Source: an uncultured Alphaproteobacteria bacterium
GTDB lineage: Bacteria > Pseudomonadota > Alphaproteobacteria > HIMB59 > GCA-002718135
Assembly: GCA_902512415.1 (NCBI GenBank)
Contig: CABXJB010000007.1
Coordinates: 1 to 35,854 of the forward strand
Direction of reading: 5' to 3'
Length of the DNA: 35,854 nucleotides
A model generated the notes under the pieces. It had not been told where the DNA came from, searched no databases, and saw nothing but the letters and a program-made list of their open reading frames with translations. Positions within the stretch are counted from its first letter, which is position 1, and every line of letters begins with the position of its first letter. Made by a program: the position numbers and the translations under genes. This document shows, one piece after another, positions 1 through 27,382 of this stretch.

Positions 1-1
1 A

Positions 2-535
2 TCTCAACTTCATTGGATAATCTGGATTGCTATCTTATTATGTGTTTATGGATCTTATTTACTATCATCAAATCAAAGTGTTGAGATACAGCGCTCTGAT
101 GCATTAATTTTTATCTCAGCTTTTTGTTTTGCATTTCATTTAATTCTGATTGATATTTTCATGAAACAATTCAACTCACCGTTTGCATATGGAAGTATAC
201 AATATTTTATTGTATTTCTTTTATCGCTGCTTATTGCAGGAGCATTTGAAAGCCCTACATTAATAAATATTTCAATTGAATGGTTTGAAATATTATACAC
301 AGGAGTTCTGTCTGCTGGTTTAGGATATACATTGCAAATAATTGCACAGCGAAAAGCAAGCCCAGCACCTGCAGCTATTATTTTATCTATGGAAGGTGTA
401 TTTGCAACTATTGCAGGGTGGTTACTTATTAATCAAACTTTAGACTTAAATAAATTATTAGGATGTGTTGCAATTTTTTTAGGGGTAATTATAGTGCAGC
501 TTTTACCAATTATAAGAAAAACAAATGACAAATAA
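2..535 (+). CDS. EamA/DMT-family transporter, C-terminal part (cut by window start)
   Basis: The frame is open from the first bases of the window and gives about 177 residues of a hydrophobic protein with roughly five membrane segments. It contains the second EamA repeat, including the LYTGVLSAGLGYTLQIIAQ and SMEGVFATIAGWLL stretches typical of drug/metabolite transporters. The N-terminal half is missing because the window begins inside the gene, so an internal ATG at 161 is not the true start. Its last bases overlap the start of a PfkB-type kinase fragment at 525. The N-terminus of an EamA protein appears inverted at 617-739 and may be from another copy of this same gene. The substrate cannot be told. 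Confidence 0.85.
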   Translation, partial: SQLHWIIWIAILLCVYGSYLLSSNQSVEIQRSDALIFISAFCFAFHLILIDIFMKQFNSPFAYGSIQYFIVFLLSLLIAGAFESPTLINISIEWFEILYTGVLSAGLGYTLQIIAQRKASPAPAAIILSMEGVFATIAGWLLINQTLDLNKLLGCVAIFLGVIIVQLLPIIRKTNDK

Positions 536-635
536 ATTAGATATTGTTGGCATTGGAAATGCTATGGTGGATGCCATCATTCCATCAAATAAAGAAGAAG
601 TTGAAAAAAATAATTTAAATCGTGAAAAACTAAAA
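525..635 (+). pseudogene. PfkB-family sugar/adenosine kinase, N-terminal fragment
   Basis: The first 37 or so residues (MTNKLDIVGIGNAMVDAIIP..., then EKNNLNREKLK) match the conserved N-terminus of PfkB/ribokinase-family kinases of the adenosine-kinase type, where the GIGNAxVD motif begins the substrate-binding sheet. After that the frame turns into unrelated sequence and stops at 734, giving 69 residues against about 330 for the family. The start overlaps the end of the EamA gene by 11 bases, a normal operon arrangement, so the true gene was probably intact in the native locus. The break coincides with sequence that reads as another gene on the opposite strand. Confidence 0.75.
617..635. other. 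Inversion junction between two truncated gene starts
   Basis: These 19 bases can be read as the end of the kinase similarity on the plus strand (LNREKLK) and as the end of the EamA similarity on the minus strand (SFSRF). Left of it the sequence belongs to the EamA-kinase side; right of it to the yejA-EamA side in reverse. A short stretch compatible with both parents is what microhomology-mediated joining, or a multiple-displacement-amplification chimera, would leave. Confidence 0.6.
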
Positions 636-739
636 GTAAATGGTCCAATAGAGCCCATTCCAGTTGTCTGTGAGACAAAAGCTGTGCCCCATATTAAAGT
701 AGCAATTAGCATTAAAAAATTTGCTCGAGTTTGAGACAT
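617..739 (-). pseudogene. EamA/DMT transporter, N-terminal fragment in inverted orientation
   Basis: Read on the minus strand from an ATG at 739, the first 41 residues (MSQTRANFLMLIATLIWGTA, then FVSQTTGMGSIGPFTFSFSRF) are a typical EamA N-terminus: one membrane segment with the IWGTAF motif and the GPFTF...RF stretch before the second segment. After about residue 41 the frame becomes the antisense of the kinase fragment and loses all similarity. The start lies 7 bases after the stop of the yejA-like gene, as expected for an operon partner. I infer that it is the missing front end of the same kind of gene seen at 2-535. Confidence 0.7.
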
Positions 740-746
740 TAAAAAA

Positions 747-2549
747 CTATCTGTTTAGTTTTTTTTCTTTTTCTTGATTAATCCACCAAGATTCAATGAC
801 AATCCCATAAAGAGGAATTGTTTCAGGGAATTCGAACATATTCCAATAAGCAATTCTGTCGATGTTGCTATGATATAAAGGAATAACATAATGACCCCAT
901 AAAAGTACTCTATCTAAGGCGTGTATTGCCGTTGTGAGTTCTTCTCTCGTTTGTGCTCCAATTAATTGTCCAATTAAATAATCAACAACTTTACTATCAA
1001 CACCTGCATAGTTTCTACTTCCTTCTTTTTTACCTACTTCTGAACCGTAGTAAAATTGTTGCTCATTACCAGGACTCAGACTAACATTCCAAGAAGCTTT
1101 AATCATATCAAAATCATAATTTAATAACCTTGCTTGATATTGTGAAGAATCTACGGTGCGCACATTCATTGTTATACCCAATACTTCTAATGTTTTTTGG
1201 AAAGCTAAAGCAATTCTCTCAACTGAAGGACTGACAATTAAAAACTCAAATTCAAAATGTTTCCCATCTTTCATTAGTTTTCCATCATTGATGACCCATC
1301 CTTCTTCCTCTAATATATTTTTTGCTATTCTTAAATTTTCTCTAGGATTTCCACTACCATCTGTTTCAGGTGGTGCATAAGTTGTGGTAAATATTTCAGC
1401 AGGTAGTTGATCTTTGAAAGGTTCTAATAATTGTAATTCTTTTTCAGAAGGTAGGCCAGTTGAAGCTAAAGGTGAATTATCAAAATAGCTATCAGTTCTA
1501 ACATAGGCATTATTGTAGAGAACTTTATTAATCCATTCATGATCATAAGCAAAAGAAAGAGCATACCTGACACGCGGGTTACTAAATAAGTCTTTTCGTG
1601 AATTAAAAATTAATGCATTCATTCCTGATGGTCTGTCATTTTTCATTTCATTTAAAACAACATCACCATTTGAGACAGCATCAAAATCATATTCAGAGAA
1701 CCATCTTTTTGCATTATATTCACGGCGATAATCATACTCACCAACTTTAAACGCTTCTACAAGTACGGTAGAGTCTTTGTAATAATCATAAATTATTTGA
1801 TCAAAATTATATTGTCCTTTGTGAATAGGTAAATCTTTTGCCCAATAATCTTTAACTCTTTGGTATTTTATTTGACGACCAGGATCTAAGCTTTCAATAC
1901 GATAAGGACCACTTCCAAGCGGAATATCTAAAAAAGTTTTTGTGACATCAATATCACTATAATATTTTTTTGGAATAATAGGGAGAAAACCCGCAACAAT
2001 GAGAGGAAGTTCTTTGTCTTCATTATTTATAAAGTTCATTTTTATTCCACTTGCACCAATCATCTCGGTAGAATTTACTTTCCCATAAGTTTTTTTCTGA
2101 TTTGGCGTTCCTTTGGTTTGAAAAGTCTCTAAACTAAATAACACATCTTCTCTTGTAATAGGTGAACCATCGTGAAACTTTGCATTTGGATTAATGTAAA
2201 ATGTAATTGATGATCTATCCTCTGGCATATCAGCATACTCTGCAATTAAACCATATAAAGTAAAAGCCTCATCCCAAACTCTTCTCATTAAAGTGTCATT
2301 AATATATCCAAGACCAGCAGCTTTTGATCCTTTAAAAGCTACTCTATTTAAATTATCAAATGCACCATAGGCACCAAAGCGCACAACGCCTCCTTTAGGA
2401 GCGTTAGGATTTACATAATCTAGATGACTAAAACCATCTTCATATTTTGGTTTGCCATGCATAGAAATCCCATGTGTTTTTTCAGCAAATGAAGAAGAAT
2501 TAAAAAAAGTAATAAATAGACTGACAATTAAGAGATATTTAAGATTCAT
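747..2549 (-). CDS. yejA: YejA-like extracellular solute-binding protein (peptide ABC transporter)
   Basis: A 600-residue periplasmic binding protein of the SBP_bac_5 family. An N-terminal signal peptide (KYLLIVSLFITFF...SSSFA) precedes the mature start EKTHGISMHG. YejA-type landmarks are YVNPNAPKGG near residue 45, KFHDGSPITREDVLFSLE in the middle of the N-lobe, GSGPYRI, and FNSRKDLFSNPRVRYALSFA, all usual for oligopeptide-binding proteins that work with YejBEF. The length agrees with the family. No permease or ATPase genes follow; the next reading frame downstream is the truncated EamA fragment, 7 bases away, so the yejBEF genes must lie elsewhere. The exact ligand (peptides or peptide-like compounds) is not visible. 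Confidence 0.85.
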   Translation of the reverse strand: MNLKYLLIVSLFITFFNSSSFAEKTHGISMHGKPKYEDGFSHLDYVNPNAPKGGVVRFGAYGAFDNLNRVAFKGSKAAGLGYINDTLMRRVWDEAFTLYGLIAEYADMPEDRSSITFYINPNAKFHDGSPITREDVLFSLETFQTKGTPNQKKTYGKVNSTEMIGASGIKMNFINNEDKELPLIVAGFLPIIPKKYYSDIDVTKTFLDIPLGSGPYRIESLDPGRQIKYQRVKDYWAKDLPIHKGQYNFDQIIYDYYKDSTVLVEAFKVGEYDYRREYNAKRWFSEYDFDAVSNGDVVLNEMKNDRPSGMNALIFNSRKDLFSNPRVRYALSFAYDHEWINKVLYNNAYVRTDSYFDNSPLASTGLPSEKELQLLEPFKDQLPAEIFTTTYAPPETDGSGNPRENLRIAKNILEEEGWVINDGKLMKDGKHFEFEFLIVSPSVERIALAFQKTLEVLGITMNVRTVDSSQYQARLLNYDFDMIKASWNVSLSPGNEQQFYYGSEVGKKEGSRNYAGVDSKVVDYLIGQLIGAQTREELTTAIHALDRVLLWGHYVIPLYHSNIDRIAYWNMFEFPETIPLYGIVIESWWINQEKEKKLNR

Positions 2550-2638
2550 TATAAGTTTGTATCAAGTAAATATGGTAATTTGAAGAGTAAGTTTTTTCAA
2601 ACTACCTTTTTTCTATTTACGATATATATAGAAAACAG

Positions 2639-3556
2639 ATGAAAATTTTTTCTTCAGAAATAACCCCTTATAAACATTACATAAATAGGAGAAAATTCAT
2701 TAAATCTTCTTTAGCTGCCGGTCTAGTTTTAGGCACATCGACAACCATTCAGGCAAATCACTCATCAAACCAAAATATTTATGCCAATCAAGTTGATGAA
2801 AATGACTCTTTAAATAGTTTTGAGGAAATCACTACCTATAATAATTTTTATGAATTTGGCATGGGAAAGACAGACCCATCTGAAAATTCTAGCAATTTTA
2901 ATCCTAAGCCATGGTCAATAAATCTAGAGGGCTTAATTAATAATCCTCAAGTTCTTGATTTAGAAAATTTATTACAAAAAATAGCGATTGAGGACAGAGT
3001 ATATAGATTACGATGTGTTGAAGCCTGGTCTATGGTAATTCCGTGGCAAGGTTTTCCTTTATCAGAATTAATTAAAATTGCAGACCCTCTATCTTCAGCA
3101 AAATTTATCCAATTTGTAACAGTATTTAGACCTGATGAAATGCCAGGTCAAAAAAGAAGATTACTACCCTGGCCATATGTAGAGGGCTTACGTATGGATG
3201 AAGCAATGCATCCCCTAACTATATTATCAACAGGATTATATGGGCATGATTTACTTAATCAAAGTGGAGCTCCTCTCAGATTAGTTGTGCCGTGGAAATA
3301 TGGTTTTAAATCTATTAAATCTATTTCTTCTATTAGATTTGTTGATAAACAACCAGAAGCAACTTGGTCAATGTTGGCACCTAGCGAATATGGATTTTAT
3401 TCCAATGTAAATAATTTTGTTGATCATCCTAGATGGAGTCAGGGTACAGAAAGACGTATCGGTGAATTTAAAAGACGAAAAACTTTGATGTTTAATGGAT
3501 ATGAAGAAGAAGTTAGTCATTTATACTCAGGAATGGATTTGAGAAAATATTATTAA
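2639..3556 (+). CDS. msrP: Protein-methionine-sulfoxide reductase catalytic subunit MsrP (YedY)
   Basis: A periplasmic molybdopterin enzyme that repairs oxidised methionines in envelope proteins. The 305-residue protein has a twin-arginine leader with RRKFIKS at about residues 17-23 followed by a hydrophobic stretch, consistent with Tat export after cofactor insertion. The molybdenum-ligand cysteine is C126 in the YRLRCVEAWSMVIPWQGFPL context, which is diagnostic for YedY. LVVPWKYGFKSIKSI near residue 220 is the usual cofactor-domain signature. Three bases separate it from msrQ, its membrane electron donor, so the two form an operon. Divergent from the yejA-like gene across an 89-base gap that should hold both promoters. 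Confidence 0.95.
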   Translation: MKIFSSEITPYKHYINRRKFIKSSLAAGLVLGTSTTIQANHSSNQNIYANQVDENDSLNSFEEITTYNNFYEFGMGKTDPSENSSNFNPKPWSINLEGLINNPQVLDLENLLQKIAIEDRVYRLRCVEAWSMVIPWQGFPLSELIKIADPLSSAKFIQFVTVFRPDEMPGQKRRLLPWPYVEGLRMDEAMHPLTILSTGLYGHDLLNQSGAPLRLVVPWKYGFKSIKSISSIRFVDKQPEATWSMLAPSEYGFYSNVNNFVDHPRWSQGTERRIGEFKRRKTLMFNGYEEEVSHLYSGMDLRKYY

Positions 3557-3559
3557 TTA

Positions 3560-4165
3560 ATGATATCAACACAATCATTTAAAAAATTTAAACCTCTAAT
3601 ATTTTTAGCTATTATTTTTCCAAGTCTTCTTTGGTCTTATCAATTTATTAACGGCTCTTTAGGGGTAAATCCTATAGAAAAATTAATGGATAATATGGGT
3701 AAGATGGCATTACGTTTAATTGTGCTAACTTTATTTATTTCTTCTTTAAGTGAATTTAAAAATTTTCGTTTTTTCATCGAGATAAGAAGAATGATTGGAT
3801 TGTTTGCTTTCTTTTATGTTTCATGTCATTTTTTGACATACATAGTTCTCGATCATTTCTTTGATATAACTTTTATATTTAAGGATATTATAAAGAGACC
3901 GTTTATAACATTCGGTTTTTTAAGTTTTGTTTTATTAATTCCTTTAGTTTTAACTTCTCCAAAAAAAATATTAAAAAAAATAGGTTATAAAGTTTGGAAG
4001 AAAATACATTATTTAATTTATTCCGCAGCCATTTTATCCAGCGTTCATTTTTACATGTTGGTTAGAGCGAATAAAATTGAACCAGCAATTTATATTTTCT
4101 TAATTTTAGTATTATTAATCTATAGATTGTACTATAAAATTATTCTTCCTCGATTGGTTCGGTAA
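3560..4165 (+). CDS. msrQ: Heme-binding membrane subunit MsrQ (YedZ)
   Basis: A 201-residue polytopic membrane protein of the ferric-reductase-like family that passes electrons from the quinone pool to MsrP. About six membrane segments are visible, with histidines in the expected places (YVSCHFLTYI, KKIHYLIYSA and SVHFYMLV) likely to ligate heme. It directly follows msrP with a three-base gap. Its 3' end overlaps the 3' end of the opposite-strand MFS gene by 26 bases, so the two transcription units converge without an intergenic terminator. Confidence 0.93.
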   Translation: MISTQSFKKFKPLIFLAIIFPSLLWSYQFINGSLGVNPIEKLMDNMGKMALRLIVLTLFISSLSEFKNFRFFIEIRRMIGLFAFFYVSCHFLTYIVLDHFFDITFIFKDIIKRPFITFGFLSFVLLIPLVLTSPKKILKKIGYKVWKKIHYLIYSAAILSSVHFYMLVRANKIEPAIYIFLILVLLIYRLYYKIILPRLVR

Positions 4166-13360: not shown

Positions 13361-13918
13361 ATGTCAGATAATATTGTTAACTACTTACTTGAATTATTAG
13401 AAAAAAAAGGTTCCGATATTCAATACGGCAATGAAAATGTAACACAACTAGAACATGCTCTTCAATGTGCTGAACTTGCAGAACAACATAATAAATCAGA
13501 TGCTTTTATTGCCGCTGCTTTACTTCATGATATTGGGCATCTTTTATACGAAGATAAAGATCCTATTCATCAAGGGAAAGACGGTGTTCATGAAGATTTA
13601 GGAGCAGATTACTTATCAAAATATTTTGGGGAAGAGGTAACACTTCCTATTAGAGCACACGTTGCATCTAAGCGATATCTTGCAGCAGTTGAGGAAGGAT
13701 ATTATGACGAATTATCTGAAGCATCAAAAATATCTTTGAAAGTGCAAGGGGGCATTTTTTCTAAAGAAGAAGCAGAAGAATTTATTAATAAACCACAAAT
13801 GAAAAAAGCAGTGGAAATGAGACGCTTTGATGATCAAGCAAAAATATTAAATAAAAAAACGCCTTCAGTGGAACATTTTCGAAAGTATGTAGAAAAATCG
13901 TTCCAAGCAACTTCTTAG
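13361..13918 (+). CDS. phnZ: PhnZ-like HD-domain mixed-valent di-iron oxygenase
   Basis: A 185-residue HD-domain protein close to PhnZ, which uses oxygen and two irons to split (R)-2-amino-1-hydroxyethylphosphonate into glycine and phosphate. The metal set is complete: H32 (QLEHALQC), H56 and D57 (LLHDIGH), H60, H77 (VHEDLGADYL), H100 (RAHVASKRYL) and D156 (MRRFDDQ). Y22 and E25, corresponding to the PhnZ lid pair Y24/E27 that separates this oxygenase from ordinary HD phosphohydrolases, are also present, as is the substrate-contacting lysine in SKRYL. A TmpB-like activity on a methylated analogue is possible. No 2-oxoglutarate hydroxylase (PhnY* or TmpA) that would supply its substrate is encoded in the window. 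Confidence 0.85.
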   Translation: MSDNIVNYLLELLEKKGSDIQYGNENVTQLEHALQCAELAEQHNKSDAFIAAALLHDIGHLLYEDKDPIHQGKDGVHEDLGADYLSKYFGEEVTLPIRAHVASKRYLAAVEEGYYDELSEASKISLKVQGGIFSKEEAEEFINKPQMKKAVEMRRFDDQAKILNKKTPSVEHFRKYVEKSFQATS

Positions 13919-13927
13919 TAAAATAAT

Positions 13928-14770
13928 TTAAGAATTAAATATAAAATAAACACCAACAAAAAATATTACTGCTGAGATTAGTCTAATATTTGTTATTTTT
14001 TCACCCAGAAATATAAAACTAATTAATGACGCTATAATTATACTAGACTCTCTAATAGACGATACGTAAGCAATTGGTTGATGATTCATACTCCATATAA
14101 TTATACCATAAGCCGTAAACGACATAACAGAAGCAATAGTTATTAGCGCAAATTGATTTAATTTTAATTTAAATAAACCACTTTTGTTTGTTAAATAAAC
14201 ATAACTAATAGTAAGCCAGCCACCTAAAAAAAAATTCCATACAATAAAACTAAATTCATTAGCAGAGCTTCTCACTCCTGCTCCATCTGAAAAAGTATAG
14301 AGCGCAATTATTATGGAAACGAATAATGAAATAATTATTAGTTTGATATTTAATTTATTTTTGTAATTTTCCTTTGTTAATAAAAGTAATCCAAAAACAA
14401 CAATACCTATTCCAATGAAACCTTTTGTAGTTATAAAATCTTTTAAAAAAATAACTGATAAGATTGTAACAAAAACAGGCGCAAAACCTCTAAAGACAGG
14501 ATAAATTATAGCTATATCTCCTTTATTATACATACTTCCTAAAATTAAAAAATACGCACTATGTAATAGAAGTGATAAAATTAAATAAAACCACGTTATG
14601 CCTTCAGGAATAGGCACAAAAAATAAAATGGGAAAAAAGATTATGCTTTGAATTAGCATTTTCCAGGACATTGCAACTTGAGAATCCGTAATTGATTTAA
14701 TTATTATATTCCAACTAGCATGAAGTAATGCTGCAAAAAGGATTAGTAAAAAAATTCCAGTTTCACCCAT
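13928..14770 (-). CDS. EamA-family transporter, paralogue 2
   Basis: A 280-residue membrane protein with about ten segments and two EamA repeats, clearly paralogous to the gene at 5995-6837: matching stretches include ILFAALLHASW, FFVPIP, SDGAGVRSSANEF and AYVSSIRESSIIIASLISF. An upstream in-frame ATG at 14803 lies inside a strong terminator hairpin and would add eleven residues with no counterpart in the paralogue, so I place the start at 14770. It follows the AEP-binding protein gene on the same strand but is separated from it by that terminator. It converges on phnZ. The substrate is unknown. Confidence 0.85.
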   Translation of the reverse strand: MGETGIFLLILFAALLHASWNIIIKSITDSQVAMSWKMLIQSIIFFPILFFVPIPEGITWFYLILSLLLHSAYFLILGSMYNKGDIAIIYPVFRGFAPVFVTILSVIFLKDFITTKGFIGIGIVVFGLLLLTKENYKNKLNIKLIIISLFVSIIIALYTFSDGAGVRSSANEFSFIVWNFFLGGWLTISYVYLTNKSGLFKLKLNQFALITIASVMSFTAYGIIIWSMNHQPIAYVSSIRESSIIIASLISFIFLGEKITNIRLISAVIFFVGVYFIFNS

Positions 14771-14773
14771 TGT

Positions 14774-14803
14774 AAAAAAAAATGGGGATGTAAACATCCC
14801 CAT
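14774..14803 (-). terminator. Rho-independent terminator after the AEP-binding protein gene
   Basis: On the minus strand a perfect 9-bp stem, ATGGGGATG and CATCCCCAT, encloses a TTTA loop and is followed at once by eight T. It begins 22 bases after the stop of the phnS-like gene at 14825. The GC-rich stem stands out in this AT-rich sequence. It sits just upstream of the EamA start at 14770 and should reduce readthrough from the binding-protein gene into the carrier gene. Confidence 0.9.
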
Positions 14804-14824
14804 AATTATTAATTAAATAAAAAA

Positions 14825-15868
14825 TTAACTTTTCGGTTCAGTTTTTCCGTCGTATCTTTTTTTCCATTCAGCAACAATACGATCTTTATTTGCAGCCGCC
14901 CAAACAAAATCGTTATTAATTAATTTTGCTTGAACTTCATCATAAAAATCAGGAAGCTCAGGATCTTTAGTTACTTTGGAAGAATCAGCAATAATAGATT
15001 GTCTTTCTCCAAATAACTTCATACCATCTCCTAAAGTCCAATCCATTAATGTTTTAGCATCTTCAAGATTGTCCGTTCCTTCCATTATAGCTACCACTTG
15101 CATTTCCCAACCTATTCCTTCATCAGGAATAATCATATCAATTGGTGCACCAGCTTTGATAACTTTAATAGCTCTGCCCGGCCAAGAAATACCAATTGTA
15201 AATTCACCTGAACCAGCTTGTTTACAAGGTTTAGAACCAGAGTGAGTATAAACACCTATATTTTCATGAAGAGCATCCATGTATTCCCATGCTTTATCTT
15301 CGCCCCATATTTGAATCCAACTAGATGCATCCAAAAAGCCTGTACCAGATGATGCAGGATTAGGCATAGAAATATGACCTTTATAAATTGGGTTTGTTAA
15401 CTCAGCCCAACTTGTAGGTTTTGGTAAACCATTTTTTTCTGCTTCTATTCTATTCCAACAAATACAACCAGCCCAACCATAGTTTCCAACCCAAGTAACA
15501 GGGGCAGTATTATCTACATATCGCTGATCAATTGCATCCATACCCTTTGGTGTATATTCTACAAACATACCTTCTGCTTCCATATTAAGTGCAACGGTAG
15601 CTGCCATTTCGAATAAAAAATCTGCTTGTGGATTATCTTTTTCTGCCATCATTTTAGCAGCCATCGTACCTGTTGATTCACGTACAACATTTACTTTAAT
15701 ATCAGGATGTGATTTTTGAAATTCATCCATGTAATGTTTTAAATTATCTGCATCAGTACTTGAGTAAACTAATAACTCACCAGCATTTGCTAACTGATTA
15801 AATGTTGATAAAGATAAAAAAATTAAAACAGTACTTAATGTTTTAAATGTTTTTTTTATTAAGAACAT
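14825..15868 (-). CDS. phnS: 2-aminoethylphosphonate ABC transporter, periplasmic binding protein (PhnS/AepX type)
   Basis: A 347-residue extracellular binding protein of the iron/AEP-type family. The start at 15868 is fixed by a near-perfect GGAGGT six bases upstream; the frame is open 21 codons further, but those codons precede this site and lack such a signal. A signal peptide (KKTFKTLSTVLIFLSLSTF...ANA) leads to mature GELLVYSSTDADN, typical of the family. Conserved internal stretches are ADFLFEMAATVALN, NPASSGTGFLDASSW and FTIGISWPGRAI. Divergent from the ATPase gene, 162 bases away, and closed by its own terminator. The ligand is assigned from phnWAY and phnZ next door. Confidence 0.85.
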   Translation of the reverse strand: MFLIKKTFKTLSTVLIFLSLSTFNQLANAGELLVYSSTDADNLKHYMDEFQKSHPDIKVNVVRESTGTMAAKMMAEKDNPQADFLFEMAATVALNMEAEGMFVEYTPKGMDAIDQRYVDNTAPVTWVGNYGWAGCICWNRIEAEKNGLPKPTSWAELTNPIYKGHISMPNPASSGTGFLDASSWIQIWGEDKAWEYMDALHENIGVYTHSGSKPCKQAGSGEFTIGISWPGRAIKVIKAGAPIDMIIPDEGIGWEMQVVAIMEGTDNLEDAKTLMDWTLGDGMKLFGERQSIIADSSKVTKDPELPDFYDEVQAKLINNDFVWAAANKDRIVAEWKKRYDGKTEPKS

Positions 15869-15874
15869 ATAATT

Positions 15875-15880
15875 ACCTCC
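15875..15880 (-). promoter_or_regulatory. Strong Shine-Dalgarno site of the phnS-like gene
   Basis: The minus strand reads GGAGGT six bases before the ATG at 15868. It is one of the best-matched ribosome binding sites in the window, where many genes have none, and it decides the start in favour of the signal-peptide methionine. It fits the high expression usual for periplasmic binding proteins. Confidence 0.8.
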
Positions 15881-15940
15881 GATTAAAATTTTAGATTTAT
15901 TCATTTTAAATATGACAATCATGTTAAGCATATATTAAAA

Positions 15941-15954
15941 AATTGTTAACAATT
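15941..15954. promoter_or_regulatory. 14-bp palindrome in the divergent phnS/phnT control region
   Basis: AATTGTTAACAATT is a perfect palindrome near the middle of the 162-base gap between the binding-protein gene and the ATPase gene. Its position suits an operator controlling both directions. No regulator gene apart from zur is in the window, so the binding protein is unknown, and I could not recognise a convincing Pho box here. Confidence 0.4.
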
Positions 15955-16030
15955 ATTCATAAATTTCAATATAATTTTGCGTATAACAAGCTATAACTAT
16001 GTTAAATTTACTTAAAACTTATTTAATTCT

Positions 16031-17104
16031 ATGCTGAATAATAACACATATCTTGAAGTTAAAGATTTATCGAAATCATTCGGATCTTTTGAAGCAATAA
16101 AAAATATTGATATAAATATACAAGAAGGTGAATTTGTTTGTTTTCTTGGTCCTTCTGGTTGTGGCAAAACAACCTTACTAAGATGTATAGCAGGTTTAGA
16201 AACTCAAAGTACAGGATCTGTTATTCAAAAAAATATTAATATATCAAATGAGCCTCCATCAAATAGAGATTTTGGAATTGTCTTTCAATCTTATGCCTTG
16301 TTTCCAAACCTGTCTGTCTTTTCAAATATATCGTATGGTTTAATAAATAATAAATGGAAAAAAGCAGATATAAAAAAAAGAGTAGATGAATTATTAAGTT
16401 TAGTTAATCTAACTGAACATGCAACAAAGTATCCAAGCCAGCTATCTGGTGGTGAGCAACAACGTGTAGCCTTAGCTAGAGCATTAGCAACATCCCCTGG
16501 ATTATTGTTATTAGATGAACCGTTATCCGCATTGGATGCAAAGGTTAGGGTTTTTTTAAGAAAACAAATTAGAGATTTACAAAGGAAGCTTGGTGTAACA
16601 ACTATTATGGTTACCCATGATCAAGAAGAAGCACAAACAATGGCAGACAGAATCTTTGTAATGAAAGATGGGGAAATAATTCAGTCAGGAACGCCAAGTG
16701 ACATTTATACAAAAGCTAATTCTCCTTTTATAGCCTCTTTTATTGGTAGCATGAATTTTATTCCTGCCGTTATTGATAGTTCAAACAAAGTAAAGTGTAA
16801 TAAAATAGAGATCACTTGTGATATAGGAAAGTTTAAAGCAAATGATTCTGTTCAACTAGCTATTAGACCTGAGGACATTCAATTTAAACAAAATAACCAG
16901 GATGACAATATGATTCCAGGCACAATTAAAGAAATTGAATTTTTAGGATCTTTTCAACGAGTTTATTTTGAAACTATTAATATTACAGATGAATTAATTA
17001 TTGTTGATGTCCCGAGTGCTACTGCAAGAAAAATTGAATTAGATATTAATAAAGAAATGAATTTATATTTTTCTAAAGAAGATGCTCGTATTTATTCAAC
17101 ATAA
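16031..17104 (+). CDS. phnT: AEP ABC transporter ATP-binding protein (PhnT type)
   Basis: A 357-residue ABC ATPase with a C-terminal regulatory domain, as in the importer subfamily for phosphonates, iron and sugars. Walker A is GPSGCGKTT near residue 40, the Q-loop is FQSYALFPN, the signature is LSGGEQQRVALARALA near 140, Walker B is LLLLDEPLSALDAKVR, and the switch histidine follows in VTHDQEEA. The last hundred residues hold a TOBE-like region (LAIRPEDIQF). Eight bases separate it from the permease gene. It would energise AEP uptake together with the divergently encoded binding protein. Confidence 0.9.
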   Translation: MLNNNTYLEVKDLSKSFGSFEAIKNIDINIQEGEFVCFLGPSGCGKTTLLRCIAGLETQSTGSVIQKNINISNEPPSNRDFGIVFQSYALFPNLSVFSNISYGLINNKWKKADIKKRVDELLSLVNLTEHATKYPSQLSGGEQQRVALARALATSPGLLLLDEPLSALDAKVRVFLRKQIRDLQRKLGVTTIMVTHDQEEAQTMADRIFVMKDGEIIQSGTPSDIYTKANSPFIASFIGSMNFIPAVIDSSNKVKCNKIEITCDIGKFKANDSVQLAIRPEDIQFKQNNQDDNMIPGTIKEIEFLGSFQRVYFETINITDELIIVDVPSATARKIELDINKEMNLYFSKEDARIYST

Positions 17105-17112
17105 TTAAACAT

Positions 17113-18816
17113 ATGAGTTTATTCAAATTTGCAAATATACGTAGAGGTAAAGATTCAAGTGATCGAGTTGGGTTATTTATGCTCATATCCTATATTATTC
17201 TTTTTTTATTATTTTTAGTTTTACCTCTTGGTTCTTTAATTTCGAAAAGTTTACAAAATAAAGATGGGGAATTTATAGGTCTTACAAACTATAACTTATA
17301 TCTTCAAGAACCAGCGTTATTTCAATCACTGTATAATAGTTTATTTGTTGCTATTTGTTCCACTGTTATAGTTGTTGTTTTGGCTTTTTTATTTTCTTAT
17401 GCTCTAACAAGAACTTGTATGCCTTTTAAAGGTTTTTTTAAATTAATAGCTTTAATACCTTTATTAAGTCCATCGATTCTAGCTGCGATAGCTCTTGTGT
17501 ATTGGTTTGGCAATCAAGGTGTTTTAAAAGAAGTGTTGTTAGGAAAATCAATATACGGACCTATTGGTATAATTATGGCTTCTGTGTATTGGACTTTTCC
17601 TCATGCGCTTATAATTTTGACAACTTCTTTATCACTATCTGATTCACGTTTATATGAAGCTGCGGACGTTTTAAAAACATCTAAACTTAGAGCATTTTTT
17701 ACGATTACTATCCCAGGTGCAAGATATGGAATCATTAGTACGGCTTTTGTAATTTTTACTCAAGTATTTACTGACTTTGGTGTTCCTAAAGTTATAGGCG
17801 GAAACTATAATGTTTTAGCAACTGATATTTATAAAGAAGTTGTTGGGATGCAAAATTTTCAAATGGGTGCAGTAATTTCAATGGTGTTATTGGTTCCTGC
17901 GATGATAGCTTTTTTTATTGATCGTTATTCAAGAAAAAAACAAATTTCTTTACTCACATCTAGATCCGTTGTGTTTAAACCTAAGAAGCACTTTAAGGTT
18001 GATATGATTATGCTTGGATTCTGTTCGGCCTTAGCTTTAATTATAATATTAATGATAGGGATGGCGCAATACGGTGCAATAGTTAAATTTTGGCCTTATA
18101 ACTTAAACTTTACGTTAAAAAATTATGATTTTCAAGTAGCCGGACTTGGTTGGGATTCTTTCTATAATTCTGTCCGATTGGCATTTTATACAGCAATATT
18201 TGGCACCATTATTATTTTTGTTGGCGCTTACTTAATTGAAAAGTTAAGAATTAATGAGGGATATAGAAATATAGTGCAATTTTTTGCTCTTATGCCAATG
18301 GCTGTTCCAGGGCTGGTATTAGGATTGGCCTATATATTTTTCTTTAATGCAAAAGATAATCCTCTAAATTTTATTTACGCAACAATGATTATCTTGGTTG
18401 TAAATACTATTGTTCATTTCTATACAGTATCTCACTTGACAGCCATAACAGCTTTAAAGCAAATGGATAAAGAGTTTGAATCTGTTTCTTTATCTTTAAA
18501 AATTCCGATTTATAAGATGTTTTGGCGTGTAACATTACCAGTTTGTCTACCACCCATTTTTGATGTTTCTATTTATTTATTTGTCAATGCTATGACTACA
18601 GTTTCTGGGGTAATTTTCCTTTATTCTTATGATACCACTCTAGCGTCTGTGTCTGCTATTCATTTAGATGAACAAGGAGAAGTTGCTAAAGCTGCTGCGA
18701 TGGCAATGTTAATAGTCTATGTATCAGTTGCAGTCCGATTAACTCATACAATTATTACAAAAAAAGTATTGCGTAAAACTCAAGCGTGGCGATACAATAT
18801 TCTTGATACTAAATAA
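17113..18816 (+). CDS. phnU: AEP ABC transporter permease, fused two-domain (PhnU type)
   Basis: A 567-residue inner-membrane protein with two permease halves in one chain, each with about six segments. The two coupling loops that contact the ATPase are visible: EAADVLKTSKLRAFFTITIPGA near residue 190 and SLSLKIPIYKMFWRVTLP near 460. This fused form matches the putative AEP permease family (TIGR03262-like), in which one gene replaces separate phnU and phnV. It lies between the ATPase gene (8 bases) and the dual-specificity phosphatase gene (20 bases), all on the plus strand. Confidence 0.88.
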   Translation: MSLFKFANIRRGKDSSDRVGLFMLISYIILFLLFLVLPLGSLISKSLQNKDGEFIGLTNYNLYLQEPALFQSLYNSLFVAICSTVIVVVLAFLFSYALTRTCMPFKGFFKLIALIPLLSPSILAAIALVYWFGNQGVLKEVLLGKSIYGPIGIIMASVYWTFPHALIILTTSLSLSDSRLYEAADVLKTSKLRAFFTITIPGARYGIISTAFVIFTQVFTDFGVPKVIGGNYNVLATDIYKEVVGMQNFQMGAVISMVLLVPAMIAFFIDRYSRKKQISLLTSRSVVFKPKKHFKVDMIMLGFCSALALIIILMIGMAQYGAIVKFWPYNLNFTLKNYDFQVAGLGWDSFYNSVRLAFYTAIFGTIIIFVGAYLIEKLRINEGYRNIVQFFALMPMAVPGLVLGLAYIFFFNAKDNPLNFIYATMIILVVNTIVHFYTVSHLTAITALKQMDKEFESVSLSLKIPIYKMFWRVTLPVCLPPIFDVSIYLFVNAMTTVSGVIFLYSYDTTLASVSAIHLDEQGEVAKAAAMAMLIVYVSVAVRLTHTIITKKVLRKTQAWRYNILDTK

Positions 18817-18836
18817 TATTAATAAAATATACTGTT

Positions 18837-19364
18837 ATGGATAAATTGGCGTATGACTTTGTACAATCAAAAGATGTTAGTGGAAAAATTTTTCTTACCT
18901 GCTTTCCAGGAAGACAGGGATCAGAAATTTTATATAAGGAAAGTATTTTTTTAGCAGATTTAAATAACTTTATTAATCTAGGCTGTAATACTATTCTAAG
19001 TTTAGTTGAAGATTCAGAATTTGAAAAACTGTGTGATAAAAAAAATTTTGTTCGTTCTATATACGCTAAAAATTTAAAATGGATGCATATGCCTATTAAA
19101 GATTTAAAAGCACCGGATCGTCAATTTAATGAAAAATGGGAAACAACAAAAGTATTATTAAAAAATGATTTAATGGAAGGAAAAAATATTGTTATTCATT
19201 GTATGGGAGGAAAAGGACGTTCTGGAACTATCGCTGCCATTTTGTTGATAGAATTTGGTGAAGATAATAAAAAAGCAATAGAGATAGTTAGAGAAAAAAG
19301 AAAAGGGGCTATTGAAACAGAGGAACAGGAAGAATTTATTTTAAATTATAACAGGATTAAATAA
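18837..19364 (+). CDS. Dual-specificity/tyrosine-type phosphatase at the end of the AEP transporter operon
   Basis: A 175-residue cytosolic protein with the C-x5-R phosphatase signature HCMGGKGRSGTIAA; the nucleophile is C122 and the arginine R128. A likely general acid is the aspartate in MPIKDLKAPDRQF about 30 residues earlier. The N-terminal FLTCFPGRQG stretch resembles the cyclin-kinase-inhibitor-3-like bacterial group. It follows the fused permease by 20 bases, so it is probably made with the transporter, but whether its substrate is a protein, a lipid or a small phosphate ester is unknown. Its last 8 bases overlap the end of the opposite-strand phosphate transporter gene. Confidence 0.8.
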   Translation: MDKLAYDFVQSKDVSGKIFLTCFPGRQGSEILYKESIFLADLNNFINLGCNTILSLVEDSEFEKLCDKKNFVRSIYAKNLKWMHMPIKDLKAPDRQFNEKWETTKVLLKNDLMEGKNIVIHCMGGKGRSGTIAAILLIEFGEDNKKAIEIVREKRKGAIETEEQEEFILNYNRIK

Positions 19365-21450: not shown

Positions 21451-22473
21451 TTATATAATGGGTTGGCCGGTTTTGGCATCAATCATATAACTTAAATATT
21501 GTTCAGTACATTTTTCCCATGTAAGTTTTAATGCAAAGTTTCTGCAATCTTCCCTTTTAATTTTAAGTGCTTTTTGTATTGAAATCTCCAAGTTATTATC
21601 AAGAGTATTAATTTCAGTATCAGTTAAAATATCTTTCGGCCCTGTTACAGGAAATGCCGCTACTGGAGTTCCAGATGCTAAAGATTCTAAAATAACATTT
21701 CCTAAAGTATCTGTTTTGGATGGAAAAACAAAAACATCTGCATCTGCATAATATTTTGCAAGTTCGTCTCCTGTTTTTAAACCAACAAATTCAATATCAG
21801 GATATTTGTTAATATATTTTTTTAATTCTGGACCATCACCAACAACTGTTTTTTTATAATTACCTTTAATATTTAAAAACTCTTTAATATTTTTTTCAAT
21901 AGCAACTCTTCCTACATAGGTTAGTCTGATATCTTGATCAAATCTATTTCTTTTCCTAGGATTAAATAGATCTGTATCAACTCCCCTATTCCATAGTTTA
22001 AGATTTTTAAATTTGTATTTTAAAAGTTCTGTGATCATTGAGTTTGATGGCACTAGAACATTAATCGAATGCTCATGAAGTCTTCTTAGAATTGAATATG
22101 TGAAAGTTCTTGGAACAAAGAATCTTTGTTTAATATAATCAGGGAAACGTGTATGAAAGGAAGAAGTAATTTTTAAATCTTTCATTACTGAAAATCTTTT
22201 TCCTGCAAAACCTACAGGGCCTTCAGTAATTAGATGAATTATATCTGGATCATATTTTTTGAAAAAATTACTTGTAGTATTTTTTGTATTATAAGAAAAT
22301 TTAATCTCTTTATACCAAGGATAACTAAAATTACTAAACATCTCTGGATGCAAAACCTCAACATCAAAACCTTTTTTATTTAATAAAGGAATAATATTTT
22401 TAAAAGTTGTTACGACTCCATTTACTTGTGGATCCCATGCATCACTTATTAAAGCAATTTTTTTAGGCGGCAT
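21451..22473 (-). CDS. agt: GT4 glycosyltransferase, probable diacylglycerol glycosyltransferase (Agt)
   Basis: A 340-residue GT-B fold enzyme. The N-terminal half has VNGVVTTFKNI, HLITEGPVGFAGK and SFHTRFPDY; the C-terminal half has YVGRVAIEKNIKEFL, VVGDGPELKKY and FPSKTDTLGNVILESLASGTPVAAFP, which contains the acidic-x7-E nucleotide-sugar site with D in first place, as in SqdX/MgtA-like enzymes. It overlaps the PlcP gene by 11 bases. In marine bacteria this pair replaces phospholipids by glycolipids when phosphate is scarce: PlcP makes diacylglycerol and Agt adds a sugar. The sugar (glucose or glucuronate) cannot be told. Confidence 0.85.
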   Translation of the reverse strand: MPPKKIALISDAWDPQVNGVVTTFKNIIPLLNKKGFDVEVLHPEMFSNFSYPWYKEIKFSYNTKNTTSNFFKKYDPDIIHLITEGPVGFAGKRFSVMKDLKITSSFHTRFPDYIKQRFFVPRTFTYSILRRLHEHSINVLVPSNSMITELLKYKFKNLKLWNRGVDTDLFNPRKRNRFDQDIRLTYVGRVAIEKNIKEFLNIKGNYKKTVVGDGPELKKYINKYPDIEFVGLKTGDELAKYYADADVFVFPSKTDTLGNVILESLASGTPVAAFPVTGPKDILTDTEINTLDNNLEISIQKALKIKREDCRNFALKLTWEKCTEQYLSYMIDAKTGQPII

Positions 22474-23275
22474 TCTCTTTCATTTCCTTTTTTTCTTTAA
22501 AGGAAATAAGTTTTAATCTTTCTCTTTCTTCTGCCCAATTTAAAATAGATAAATCTCCAGTTTCATCCTCTACTAGTGCAGTACAGCTTTCTATCCAATC
22601 ACCATCGTTACAATAAAGTACACCGTTTAATTCTTTTATCTCTGGTCTATGAATGTGTCCACAAACAACTACATCAGCTTTTTCTCTTCTTGCCCTGTCT
22701 GAAACTGCAAACTCAAAGTTGCTAATAAAATTCGTTGCATGTTTTGTTTTTTTTTTAAGATACTGAGATAATGACCAGTATGATAAACCAAGTTTTCTTC
22801 TTATAAAATTTACTACATTATTTAGTTTAAGTAAAAATTCATAAAGTGCTGAACCAATTTTTGCTAACCATTTTGCATTAATAATAACAGCATCAAATTC
22901 ATCACCGTGAGTAATGAGTACTTTTCTTCCATCTGCTAATGTGTGACGATCTTCATTTTTAATACAGATGTCCCCAAATGAAAAATTAGTAAAATCTTTT
23001 AAAAGCTCGTCATGGTTACCAGGTATTAAATTTACCTTTGTTCCATTTTTTGCTTTTTTAAGAACTTTTTGGACAACATCATTGTGTTCTTGATGCCAGT
23101 ACATTTTTTTACGCATTCTCCATCCATCAATGATATCGCCAACTAAAAATAGATATTCGGAGTCTGTCTGATCTAAAAATTCAAGCAGCATCGAACTTTT
23201 ACTCCCACTTGTTCCAAGATGAGTATCGGAAATCCAAATTGTTCTGTAAAATTTTTTGTTATTTTCAAAATTCAC
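22463..23275 (-). CDS. plcP: PlcP, metallophosphoesterase-type phospholipase C
   Basis: A 270-residue member of the LpxH-like calcineurin family (COG2908) with ISDTHLG at 14-20, GDIIDGWRM near 47, PGNHDE near 86, ITHGDEFD near 120 and VCGHIHRPE near 207. The MRKKMYWHQEHNDVV stretch and the basic helical insert in the middle fit the PlcP group rather than true LpxH. It is expected to cut phospholipid headgroups to diacylglycerol under phosphate limitation. The start is a GTG at 23275. Translational overlap with the glycosyltransferase gene supports the PlcP reading; LpxH is the alternative. Confidence 0.85.
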   Translation of the reverse strand: MNFENNKKFYRTIWISDTHLGTSGSKSSMLLEFLDQTDSEYLFLVGDIIDGWRMRKKMYWHQEHNDVVQKVLKKAKNGTKVNLIPGNHDELLKDFTNFSFGDICIKNEDRHTLADGRKVLITHGDEFDAVIINAKWLAKIGSALYEFLLKLNNVVNFIRRKLGLSYWSLSQYLKKKTKHATNFISNFEFAVSDRARREKADVVVCGHIHRPEIKELNGVLYCNDGDWIESCTALVEDETGDLSILNWAEERERLKLISFKEKKEMKENAA

Positions 23276-23308
23276 AATAATTTATTTAAACCTCTTATTA
23301 ATAGATTG

Positions 23309-23320
23309 AGGTATATACCT
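23309..23320. promoter_or_regulatory. 12-bp palindrome in the plcP/SET divergent gap
   Basis: AGGTATATACCT is a perfect palindrome 34 bases before the plcP GTG and 72 before the SET-gene ATG. Expected regulation is phosphate starvation, but this does not resemble a canonical Pho box, and at 12 bases chance is quite possible. Confidence 0.25.
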
Positions 23321-23391
23321 AAAAGAAATCATTTTTAATATTATTTATTTGTATTAAATTATTGGCGAATAGATTAAGAAACCTCAATATT

Positions 23392-23877
23392 ATGCATAAA
23401 CTTTGGTACAAAAAACGCTCCACCCTTCATGGATCAGGACTATTTGCAGCAAGTAATATTAAAAAAGATGATCAAGTAATCCAATATATTGGAGATAAAG
23501 TAACAAAAAAAGAAGGCGATAGAAGAGCCGATATTCAATTAAAAAAAGCTGAAAAAAATAAAAAAACCGGAATGGTGTATGTGTTCGAGCTTAATAAAAA
23601 ATACGATATTGATGGAGGAGTCCTACGAAATCATGCCAGATTTATTAATCATTCATGTGATCCAAACTGTGAAGTAGAAATTACTAATAATGAAATTTGG
23701 ATATCGGCAATTAAAAATATTAAAAAAGATACAGAGCTAACTTATAATTATGGTTACCCTTTTGATAGTGATTTTGAAGAACATATTTGTAAATGTGGAA
23801 CAAAAAAATGTGTTGGTTATATTTTAAGTGATGATGATTGGCCTAAATTAAAAAAGGAACTAAAAAAGAAAAAGTAA
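23392..23877 (+). CDS. SET-domain protein lysine methyltransferase-like
   Basis: A 161-residue protein that is nearly all SET domain. It shows HGSGLFAASNIKKDD near the start, RFINHSCDPNCEVE (the SAM and pseudoknot motif), ELTYNYGYPF (catalytic tyrosine region), and a post-SET zinc cluster CKCGTKKCVGYI at the end. All parts needed for a eukaryote-like lysine methyltransferase are present. I use the ATG at 23392; a TTG ten codons upstream would add residues with no SET similarity. It is divergent from plcP and convergent with the PiT-like gene. Its protein target is unknown. Confidence 0.85.
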   Translation: MHKLWYKKRSTLHGSGLFAASNIKKDDQVIQYIGDKVTKKEGDRRADIQLKKAEKNKKTGMVYVFELNKKYDIDGGVLRNHARFINHSCDPNCEVEITNNEIWISAIKNIKKDTELTYNYGYPFDSDFEEHICKCGTKKCVGYILSDDDWPKLKKELKKKK

Positions 23878-23884
23878 TTTTTTT

Positions 23885-24844
23885 TTAAAATCCATTTGGA
23901 ATAAAAATATAATGAATCGATAAAACAATTCCAACAGATACTGATAATCCAAAAATCATTTTTAAAAAATCTTTTCCAATTAAAGGAAAAACATATCGAA
24001 GTTTATACTCTTTATTCATTGTTGCTATTGCTAACTCTCTACCACATAATAAGCCGACAAAAACCCAAGTAGTAGACATTGGAATGTCATTATATTGTTT
24101 AAAGTAGAGTAGTATTATTGCATATATAAAATCAATGATGGTTGCAGACCTAGTGTATCGAGTGCCTGTTTTCGAATAGACAATTTTTTGAATACGCCCC
24201 CCTCGATCCCAAAAAATATAAAAAAGAAGAACACTCAATAAAACAATACATACGATTAATAAACTTACAGGTAACTGACGTGGAAGAAAAACAGCAATGT
24301 TGGCAACGTCATGACTAAGCCATGTGTACCAAAGAAATCCAGTTGTACACCATTGTCCAATCACCCAAGCTCTTCGGTGATTCTCTTTTACTTTATCAAA
24401 TTTTTCATTAATAAAATAACTAACAGCCAACCACACAAGATAAGCAACCATAGCCGCTAAACCATAACCAACAACTGATTTCATTAAAACTTTTTCAAGA
24501 ACAACAGTTGAGGCGAAAGCAGAAAGTACTAGAAAGGTTGTGGAGACAGGAATCCCTACCCTTGTAAGTATAACAAGTATTAATGGGGCGCCAGCATGAT
24601 ACCACTGAATTGTTTGATAGGGAATTTTATTTAAACGTCCAAAAGTAATATCACCATCATTAATATTCCATCCATAAATTAGAGTGAACGCGAGTACTGC
24701 AGAAGCTGCAGTCGCCAACCAATACCATTTGAAACGTTGGTTAGAGGCAATAAAAGTACCAAGAGTTTGAACTGAATCATTTGCAATAACCGAATAAGCA
24801 GCAAGACTAAAACCAACTATTGTATATATTAAAGTTAGATCCAT
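23885..24844 (-). CDS. Divergent PiT-like phosphate/anion permease
   Basis: A 319-residue membrane protein with about nine segments and PiT-type S-T-T motifs in both halves (GIPVSTTFLVLSAF near residue 97 and DIPMSTTWVFVGLLCGRE near 255). The GANDxAN signatures are altered to VIANDSVQTLGTF near the start and LSHDVANIAVF in the second half. Thus both repeats of the family are present, but with substitutions at the substrate-binding signature. It has no DUF47 partner beside it. It may carry phosphate with different affinity or another anion. Encoded on the minus strand after a short gap from the Zur-linked membrane gene. Confidence 0.75.
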   Translation of the reverse strand: MDLTLIYTIVGFSLAAYSVIANDSVQTLGTFIASNQRFKWYWLATAASAVLAFTLIYGWNINDGDITFGRLNKIPYQTIQWYHAGAPLILVILTRVGIPVSTTFLVLSAFASTVVLEKVLMKSVVGYGLAAMVAYLVWLAVSYFINEKFDKVKENHRRAWVIGQWCTTGFLWYTWLSHDVANIAVFLPRQLPVSLLIVCIVLLSVLLFYIFWDRGGRIQKIVYSKTGTRYTRSATIIDFIYAIILLYFKQYNDIPMSTTWVFVGLLCGRELAIATMNKEYKLRYVFPLIGKDFLKMIFGLSVSVGIVLSIHYIFIPNGF

Positions 24845-24897
24845 GTAGTTATTTTAACAACCACATAGATTTTAAATTTAGATTTGGCTATAGAGAA

Positions 24898-25284
24898 TTA
24901 GTGATGATGATCATCTAAATCTTTTTTAATATCTTCATGATCACCAGCCACAATATGGTACTTGCTTTTTGTTACGTATCTTTCCATAAATGGAACAGCA
25001 ATCAAAGGTAACAATCCTCCGATAACAATACCAAAAGCTGCAGATTTAAGGTGTGGATCAAGCGTTGCCGCAATAAAGTCAGCAATAACATGTGCTAAAA
25101 CAACCCCTAGTATGCCTGCGACATATCCATTAGAGACTATTTTTAGTAATCTATTTATACTCCATCCAGAATAAAAACCTATAAGCGGAATAAGAGTATG
25201 AGTAAAACCAAAAACAAATCCTCTTAGAATATCTATTTCTTCAAGGAAGTGTAAAAATTCGGGTAGTTCGTGTGCGTGTTCCAT
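24898..25284 (-). CDS. Zur-linked small membrane protein with histidine-rich ends
   Basis: A 128-residue protein with three or four membrane segments (FGFTHTLIPLIGFYSGWSI, GYVAGILGVVLAHVIADFIA, AAFGIVIGGLLPLIAVPF). The N-terminus MEHAHELPEFLHFLEE and the C-terminus HEDIKKDLDDHHH are rich in histidine and acidic residues, suitable for metal binding. Its ATG shares one base with the zur stop (TAATG), so it is translationally coupled to zur. I do not know the family; a role in zinc uptake or zinc sensing at the membrane is inferred from this linkage. Confidence 0.75.
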   Translation of the reverse strand: MEHAHELPEFLHFLEEIDILRGFVFGFTHTLIPLIGFYSGWSINRLLKIVSNGYVAGILGVVLAHVIADFIAATLDPHLKSAAFGIVIGGLLPLIAVPFMERYVTKSKYHIVAGDHEDIKKDLDDHHH

Positions 25285-25655
25285 TATTTGCAAGCCTTAC
25301 ATTTAGTTAAAATTTCTAGATCAAAAAAAGATAAATCAAACTTATTTAATTTTTTTATCTTGGTGATAGGTAAAAAAAGTTCTTTTAATAGCTCTTCAGT
25401 ATTTCCGCATATTTTACAAATTGCTAATAATGTATTGTGATCATGCTTATGTTTATGAGAGTGACTACATAACATAAACTTTTTATTAGAAATGGATTTA
25501 TGAATAACGCCATCTTTAATTAAAGCATTTAATGCTCGATATACTGTAGTTGGTTGAACTTTTTTAAATGATTGAAATTTATCTAATATTTCATATGCGG
25601 ATAAACCCTTAGGATTTCCGCTTAAAATACTTAGTGTTATTTCATTATTAGTCAT
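25284..25655 (-). CDS. zur: Fur-family zinc uptake regulator Zur
   Basis: A 123-residue repressor of the Fur family. The N-terminal winged helix contains PTTVYRALNALIKDGVIHKS, and the C-terminal half has the structural zinc cysteines CKICG and CKACK plus a histidine run CSHSHKHKHDHN that fits the Zur metal site. It is somewhat shorter than the usual 150 or so residues because the N-terminal helix is reduced. A 22-bp perfect palindrome covers its own start codon, which indicates autoregulation. It is followed, with a one-base overlap, by the histidine-rich membrane protein gene. Zur is favoured over Fur by the palindrome and the histidine-rich neighbour. Confidence 0.85.
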   Translation of the reverse strand: MTNNEITLSILSGNPKGLSAYEILDKFQSFKKVQPTTVYRALNALIKDGVIHKSISNKKFMLCSHSHKHKHDHNTLLAICKICGNTEELLKELFLPITKIKKLNKFDLSFFDLEILTKCKACK

Positions 25656-25675
25656 GTAATGTTATAACATTACAT
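25654..25675. promoter_or_regulatory. Zur box overlapping the zur start codon
   Basis: ATGTAATGTTATAACATTACAT reads the same on both strands; the core TGTTATAACA is the classic Zur-type half-site arrangement. The first bases overlap the zur ATG at 25653-25655, so binding would block its own transcription near the start. A role for murJ, 160 bases to the right, is not suggested. Confidence 0.75.
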
Positions 25676-25834
25676 ATTTTTTAATATTTAGTCAATGGTA
25701 AAAATAAAGAATTTTATTTATGCTATGATGTTTCTGTAAAAAATATAATCAAACTCTGCTATTAGTTGTTAAGAACCTAATTGGGACACAAATAAAATTT
25801 ATACAAATCACTTAGCACAATATAAAATTAGATA

Positions 25835-27382
25835 ATGCAATCGCTCTTCAGGTCCTTTTTTACTGTTAGTTTTTATACAATTCTAAGTAGGATACTTGGT
25901 TTTGTTCGTGACATATTAATAGCACGATTTCTAGGATCAACTGTAACATCAGATGCTTTCTTCGTAGCTTTTCGTATTCCCAGTTTCTTTCGACGTGTTT
26001 TAGCGGAAGGAGCATATAGCGCAGCTCTAGTCCCTGTTTTCTCTGGTATTGTAATTGATTCTAAAGATGATCGTGAAGCTGCTGACTTTGTTGAGAACAC
26101 GATGTCATTGTTACTATTTGTTACGGTGTGTTTAACAATCATTTTCTTTTTTGGCATGCCATATATAATTCAAATACTGGCGCCTGGGTTTTCTGTAAAT
26201 AGTGAAGCATTTGATTTAGCTGTTTATTTTGGAAAAATAATATTTCCGTATTTAATTTTTATTTCCTTGGCAGCACACTTTACCTCAATCTTAAATGTGC
26301 ATGAAAGATTTGCTGTAGGCGCTTTTGCTCCTGCTATTTTAAATATTAGTTTTATTCTCTCTCTTTTTATTATTACACCGTATGTAAGTTCTGCCGGTCA
26401 CGCTCTATCTATTGGTGTCTTAATAGGCGGGGTTGGACAGTTTTTATTTTTACACCGATCTATTCTGGATTTTTATAAACCTAAATTAAAATTTCCAGAA
26501 TTAAATGAGAAGTTAAGAAAGTTTTTTAGATTATTTTTCCCAGGTGTGCTTGGCTCTGGTGTAATTCAATTAAATATTATTGTTGGAACAATTATAGCTT
26601 CTTTCCTTCCTATAGGGGCAATTAGTCATTTGTATTATGCGGATAGATTAAATCAATTACCTTTAGCAATATTTGGTATTGCACTTGGAGTAGTATTACT
26701 GCCGAGTTTATCAAAAGCTATTAAATCGGATAATAATGAAATGACCACTAATTTACAAAATAGATCTTTAGAGTTTGCCTTATTAATTTCTATACCCTCA
26801 GCAATTGGTTTATATTTTTTATCTTTACCAATTGTTCATATCTTATTTGAGCGTGCCGCCTTTACTCAAGAAGATACCATCTATACTTCTAATGTGCTTG
26901 GTTATTTTGCTCTTGGTTTACCCGCTTACGTTTTAATTAAAGTTTTGATAGTTTGTTTTTTTGCAAGAGAAGATACAAAAACACCTTTATATATTTCTAT
27001 TGTCAGCGTTATTACGAATATTATATTATCTCTGATATTAATAAGTACCATGAGAGAGATGGGTATAGCATTAGCAACGGCTATCAGTGCTTGGATAAAT
27101 GCTGCTTTACTCTTTATCATACTTATTAGTAAGCAAACATTAAATTTAGACCGTCAATTTTTAAGCAATATATTTAAATTACTTATATGCTTATTAGCTC
27201 TTATTTTTGTTATTAGGTATCTAGAAAATTTCTTTTTTGCTGAATTATATTTAATAGATATTATGAATAATATATTCTATTTGGTGCTTACTGTTATTAT
27301 TACTGCAGCAATTTATGGAATATTAATATTTATATTAAAAATAATAACAATTACTGATATTAAAAACTACTTGAAAAAATAA
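25835..27382 (+). CDS. murJ: Lipid II flippase MurJ
   Basis: A 515-residue polytopic membrane protein that moves lipid II across the inner membrane for peptidoglycan synthesis. The N-terminus has the MurJ signature: [19 protein letters not shown] near residue 12, [23 protein letters not shown] near 38 and FVPVFS-like LVPVFSG. Another typical stretch is [28 protein letters not shown] near 265. About fourteen membrane segments are present, as expected. Two bases separate it from trpS. In many alphaproteobacteria murJ and trpS are adjacent, which supports normal local gene order. Confidence 0.95.

Follow-up and report, generated by a model that had tools for sequence, protein, structure and literature searches.

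The starts of two genes are joined tail to tail, on opposite strands, near the left end of contig C7, the whole of which (35,854 bp) is the window analysed here, so that the left edge of the window is a contig end. This join is almost certainly a sequencing artefact and not biology. Judged from the sequence and its comparison with related genomes, it is very probably an inverted fold-back chimera arising from phi29-type whole-genome amplification of a single cell.

Geometry of the join

Read on the plus strand, the window opens with the 3' part of an eamA gene (1..535, with an ORF at 2-535), which comprises the last 177 codons, is cut by the contig end, and encodes a match to the EamA profile PF00892 (E 2.4e-19). 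A pfkB gene starts at 525, sharing 11 bases with the eamA 3' end (535), and runs for its first ~33 codons on the same strand (525..625), with 31 aa showing 71-94% identity in 17 relatives' loci; the 33-aa stub alone retrieved no Pfam match. On the minus strand, the first 41 codons of eamA occupy 617..739 (33 aa, 85-91% identity in 19 relatives' loci), and this 41-aa stub matches PF00892 with an E-value of 2.1e-4, below the Pfam curated cut-off. The eamA start at 739 lies 7 bases past the end, at 747, of the ORF of a family 5 solute-binding protein gene on the minus strand (747..2549; SBP_bac_5, E 9e-64; 93% identity in the related genome G006), which is the native neighbour of eamA. We presume this gene to be of the yejA type, a name assigned by the sequence-only reading of this DNA and not by profile search. 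The two arm alignments overlap at 617..625, where the bases can be assigned to either arm and the fold-back junction is placed; past these bases the native genes become unrecognisable in the window, and the join leaves two spurious ORFs behind (525-734 on the plus strand and 503-739 on the minus strand).

The sequence-only reading had regarded both N-termini as correct and set in normal operon spacing, and the 11-base overlap and 7-base gap agree with this. Its kinase start at 525 likewise holds, but the arm alignments place the loss of the kinase at about 625 and not near 635, while they concur with its placing of the EamA start at 739 and the loss of that gene at 617.

When the window was aligned to 13 named relatives, the arms fell on opposite strands in 12; the thirteenth (L070) is a distant homologue with a single short match. 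In the closest named relative, L069 (AG-319-D07), positions 1-625 align at 86% identity and positions 617 onward at 88%, with strands opposed and the arms meeting at 617-625. Eight of the 12 place the arm ends at exactly 625 and 617; of the rest, three extend the right arm as far as 599 and one cuts the left arm short at 607. The matches are not chance, because the E-values across the 12 relatives are 0.0 for the right arm and at most 1.8e-125 for the left. The eamA 3' part at 1..535 matches the relatives' native eamA on the strand opposite to the rest of the window, and on a larger scale the window from 617 to 35782 is collinear with positions 40583-77602 of contig C1 of the related genome G046 on one strand, unmatched stretches aside, so that only 1-625 is flipped. 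A stretch of about 5 kb (13914-19002) is shared by the window and G046, but the corresponding site in G006 lacks it and has the flanks ~170 bp apart.

The sequence left of the junction had also been proposed to repeat a nearby locus in reverse. No such repeat is seen within the window: among its 54 inverted pairs, the 25 longest have no arm in 1-625, which is expected if the window has the loop only, and an inverted repeat inside the window was rejected as the cause of the join. Positions 1-616 are the single-copy loop of the fold-back. The loop is visible for 625 bp up to the junction, and a further 233 bp of it are missing; the repeated stem would begin 233 bp past the left edge of the window, beyond the contig end.

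The native locus in related genomes

Across the genus, the native order is yejA-eamA-pfkB on one strand, just as the sequence-only reading had supposed. In G006, eamA is complete (296 aa), as is the PfkB-family kinase gene (324 aa; L022, PF00294 E 1.1e-40), after which an adenosine deaminase gene lies on the other strand. All 19 of the relatives' loci that were fetched with yejA (L003-L021) have yejA, the eamA start, and the eamA end on the same strand and in that order; the pfkB start comes next in 17, and the other two hit the contig end inside eamA.

We searched a 1,021-bp query in native order, taken from G006, against 101 other genomes of the genus, one per species and with G006 included. 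This is the comparison with related genomes that the earlier reading had proposed, and a single alignment crosses both break points uninterrupted in 86 of the 101. In three others (G116, G012, and G002), the main alignment begins at query position 234 and the native order is present on one contig in pieces, and the native order is thus shown by 89 of the 101. The alignment is cut inside the region in G017, G056, and G013, being spread over two contigs in G056 and lying at a contig end in G017 and G013. Nine genomes gave no strong match to this query (six no match, three short matches only).

A 246-bp query across the window's join was searched in the same 101 genomes, and 93 match it somewhere while eight have no match. 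The same junction in several related genomes is what the sequence-only reading had named as speaking against a chimera; among the matches listed, none spans the junction, and they stop at the join or overrun it by up to ~18 AT-rich bases. G057, G069, and G076 gave weak matches (best E 4e-4 to 9e-4), which are outside the matches listed.

Shared bases at the break points

In the relatives measured, the native break points lie 858-860 bp apart. Compared in register at 617-625, the pfkB site and the inverted eamA site share 3-9 nt in all 12 named relatives and at least 5 nt in 10 of them: 9 nt in L061 (G006) and L062, 6 in L066, and 5 in seven relatives including L069, with 4 in L059 and 3 in L068. 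An earlier and narrower measure, which looked no further than three bases to each side of the aligned points, gave 9 (L061), 9 (L062), 0 (L069), 2 (L066), and 3 (L058) at the exact points, and 3-6 nt at nearby points for L069, L066, and L058. As a control, random point pairs 300-1,500 bp apart were drawn in L061, L069, and L003 (L061 and L003 being the same genome); at least 5 shared bases occurred in 0.8-0.9% of pairs and at least 9 in 5-12 per 100,000 pairs. Since the cell's own native sequence is absent from the assembly, the length of the microhomology has to be inferred from the relatives, which put the inverted match at the join at probably 5-9 nt.

The 9-nt inverted match is not conserved in the genus, both sites varying from one relative to another, and this argues against a recombinase site. 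This bears on the idea of a balanced inversion of the ~858-bp segment from eamA codon 41 to pfkB codon 33, or of a phase-variable switch, in which the observed junction would be one end and the other end would fall 233 bp past the contig's left edge. We give this idea hardly any credence: no recombinase site is visible, the inverted state was found in none among the matches listed in the 101 genomes, and a unique 858-bp flip should assemble through, whereas here the contig breaks off within the segment and the assembly lacks the rest of pfkB. An invertible switch with conserved flanking repeats was also considered as a class and rejected, as the sites differ between relatives.

The extent of the shared bases is equally relevant to a pure assembler misjoin arising without any chimeric molecule, for example through a k-mer join at a repeat. 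Assemblers do make misjoins at contig ends. In none of the 12 named relatives, however, do the two points have more than 9 nt in common, which is too short for a de Bruijn k-mer join; the reads must come from a chimeric molecule. A misjoin of this kind is accordingly very hard to credit.

Assembly context

The assembly comprises 925,269 bp in 55 contigs and is estimated to be 61.6% complete. We take the genome to be that of an amplified single cell on the grounds of this assembly state and the titles of its relatives' records, 10 of 13 of which carry names of the AG-... or SAG type, although several titles also say MAG; names of this type are single-cell names. The zone within 625 bp of contig ends makes up only ~7.4% of the assembly, and the junction falls in it, where a random real junction would seldom land. 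The rest of the assembly was searched with the remainder of pfkB plus the next ~10.5 kb (a total of 11.4 kb right of the break, by G006) and with the 233 bp of eamA that the contig lacks; the matches found were all 26-118 bp long. The assembly has one copy of the eamA start and one of this yejA (a collapsed copy would read the same without depth), and a yejA paralogue of 46% identity lies on contig C4. A megablast search of window positions 1-2600 against a phage collection gave no match.

These observations are where a true inverted duplication in the cell's chromosome has to be weighed. Under this explanation, yejA-eamA-pfkB' would be followed by an inverted copy produced by microhomology-mediated template switching in vivo; junction and microhomology would be identical, the collapsed repeat would likewise break the contig, and sequence alone cannot separate such a duplication from an amplification chimera. 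We nonetheless hold it to have only a slight chance of being right. It cuts pfkB, the remainder of which is not found in the assembly (a weak argument with an assembly 62% complete), it cuts eamA in one copy, and its junction is spanned by none among the matches listed in the 101 other genomes. A true inverted duplication has no evidence of its own and is improbable. Were it real, which we doubt strongly, the window would offer a snapshot of a spontaneous fold-back in an uncultured marine alphaproteobacterium, with pfkB and eamA disrupted at a microhomology of 5-9 bp.

Likeness to amplification chimeras

Chimeras made by multiple displacement amplification (MDA) offer the closest comparison. 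In the consulted parts of Lasken and Stockwell 2007 (PMC1855051), 406 of 475 single-cell MDA chimeras were inverted, 337 of these 406 joined segments less than 10 kb apart while 69 spanned more than 10 kb, and complementarity of at least 2 and up to 21 nt was present in 76.8%. The mechanism proposed there has the 3' end priming on a displaced strand close by, and self-priming hairpins were found to be no major route. For a larger read set, the portion consulted of Tu et al. (PMC4595205) gives about 70% inverted chimeras, distances that range from 0 to 5,000 nt and peak at 250-300, and overlaps that are mainly 5-8 nt long.

The C7 join resembles the chimeras of PMC1855051 in that two segments, each collinear with related genomes and lying less than 10 kb apart (858-860 bp), are joined inverted with the middle skipped, probably at a few complementary bases, and it is private to this one sample among the matches listed in the 101 genomes. 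Unlike those chimeras, which were seen in single reads, it is preserved in an assembly, at the end of a contig, and shows part of the loop. On this comparison, its features appear largely to match the published signatures of MDA inverted chimeras, and the join is almost certainly an ordinary artefact.

An amplification chimera of this kind could have formed as follows. A nascent strand would have passed through eamA and gone ~33 codons into pfkB before coming off its template, either by displacement of its 3' end or because the template was broken. Pairing over some 5-9 bases, the freed 3' end would have found the beginning of eamA on a single strand close by in the branched molecule to which both belonged, and the polymerase would then have extended it through eamA and yejA with reversed orientation. 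Synthesis in the other direction would leave an identical join. The chimeric path would have been retained during assembly, with the contig ending inside the loop.

The join matters only as a warning: fold-backs at contig ends introduce false truncated proteins into gene prediction, as with the ORFs at 525-734 and 503-739, and such assemblies could be cleaned by comparing their contig ends with a related genome to detect fold-backs. The consulted parts of a report on one laboratory's single-cell pipeline (PMC9771814) describe the trimming of contig ends by 100 bp and, for benchmark cultures, a rate of 1.5 misassemblies per 100 kb. Applied to 925 kb, this rate would predict ~14 misassemblies, although the present genome need not have come from that pipeline.

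A second fold-back in the assembly

We surveyed the 1.5-kb ends of 20 other contigs (C1-C6 and C8-C21 of the 55; 40 ends) against ~395 kb of G046. No match in this sample was found for 31 of the 40 ends. Among the nine that matched, four are collinear along all 1.5 kb (in one case except for 10 unaligned bases where a stretch ends), three matched over 171-208 bp only, and two are the two ends of contig C13. We picked C13 because both of its ends match the same place, and the survey therefore gives no frequency of fold-backs.

Contig C13 (25,974 bp) carries the same 4,130-bp sequence inverted at its two ends (1-4130 and 21845-25974), with five mismatches that all fall within 72 bp (1741-1812). 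Its course matches contig C1 of G089 between 1,501 and about 21,850, where it reverses to a point 17.7 kb back. The reversed part was searched in six relatives, and in each it has an opposite-strand match to the place already matched by the contig start. Up to 6 nt are shared at the turn by the alignment to G089, and fewer or none by the others. Like the C7 join, then, C13 is collinear with relatives until it returns on itself near a contig end; unlike it, C13 turns back 17.7 kb and keeps 4,130 bp of duplicated stem, whereas C7 stops before the stem. As a parallel, C13 is weakened somewhat because a 17.7-kb turn exceeds what is typical in the two MDA papers and because its five mismatches are clustered.

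The assembly has at least two fold-backs (C7 and C13), each near a contig end, and the presence of the second favours an amplification chimera over a real inverted duplication: an unlinked fold-back would need a second rare event in the chromosome and is expected under amplification. Together with the native order in relatives, it lends support to the fold-back amplification chimera that the sequence-only reading had put forward.

Some further observations touch on contig ends and on the C13 region. Contig C41 of G006 matches the C13 region in two parts (1-1543 and 1542-3377, overlapping by 2 bases) that lie on opposite strands and 3.5 kb apart at their nearest, and it is likely another inverted chimera. 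At the end of contig C14 (24132-25631, L136), the match to G046 covers just 171 bases at the beginning of the final 1,500, though the G046 stretch continues; this may be either a difference in gene content or another chimera. The start of contig C8 (1-528, L110) is a tandem repeat with a period of ~150 bp and copies that are 85-88% identical.
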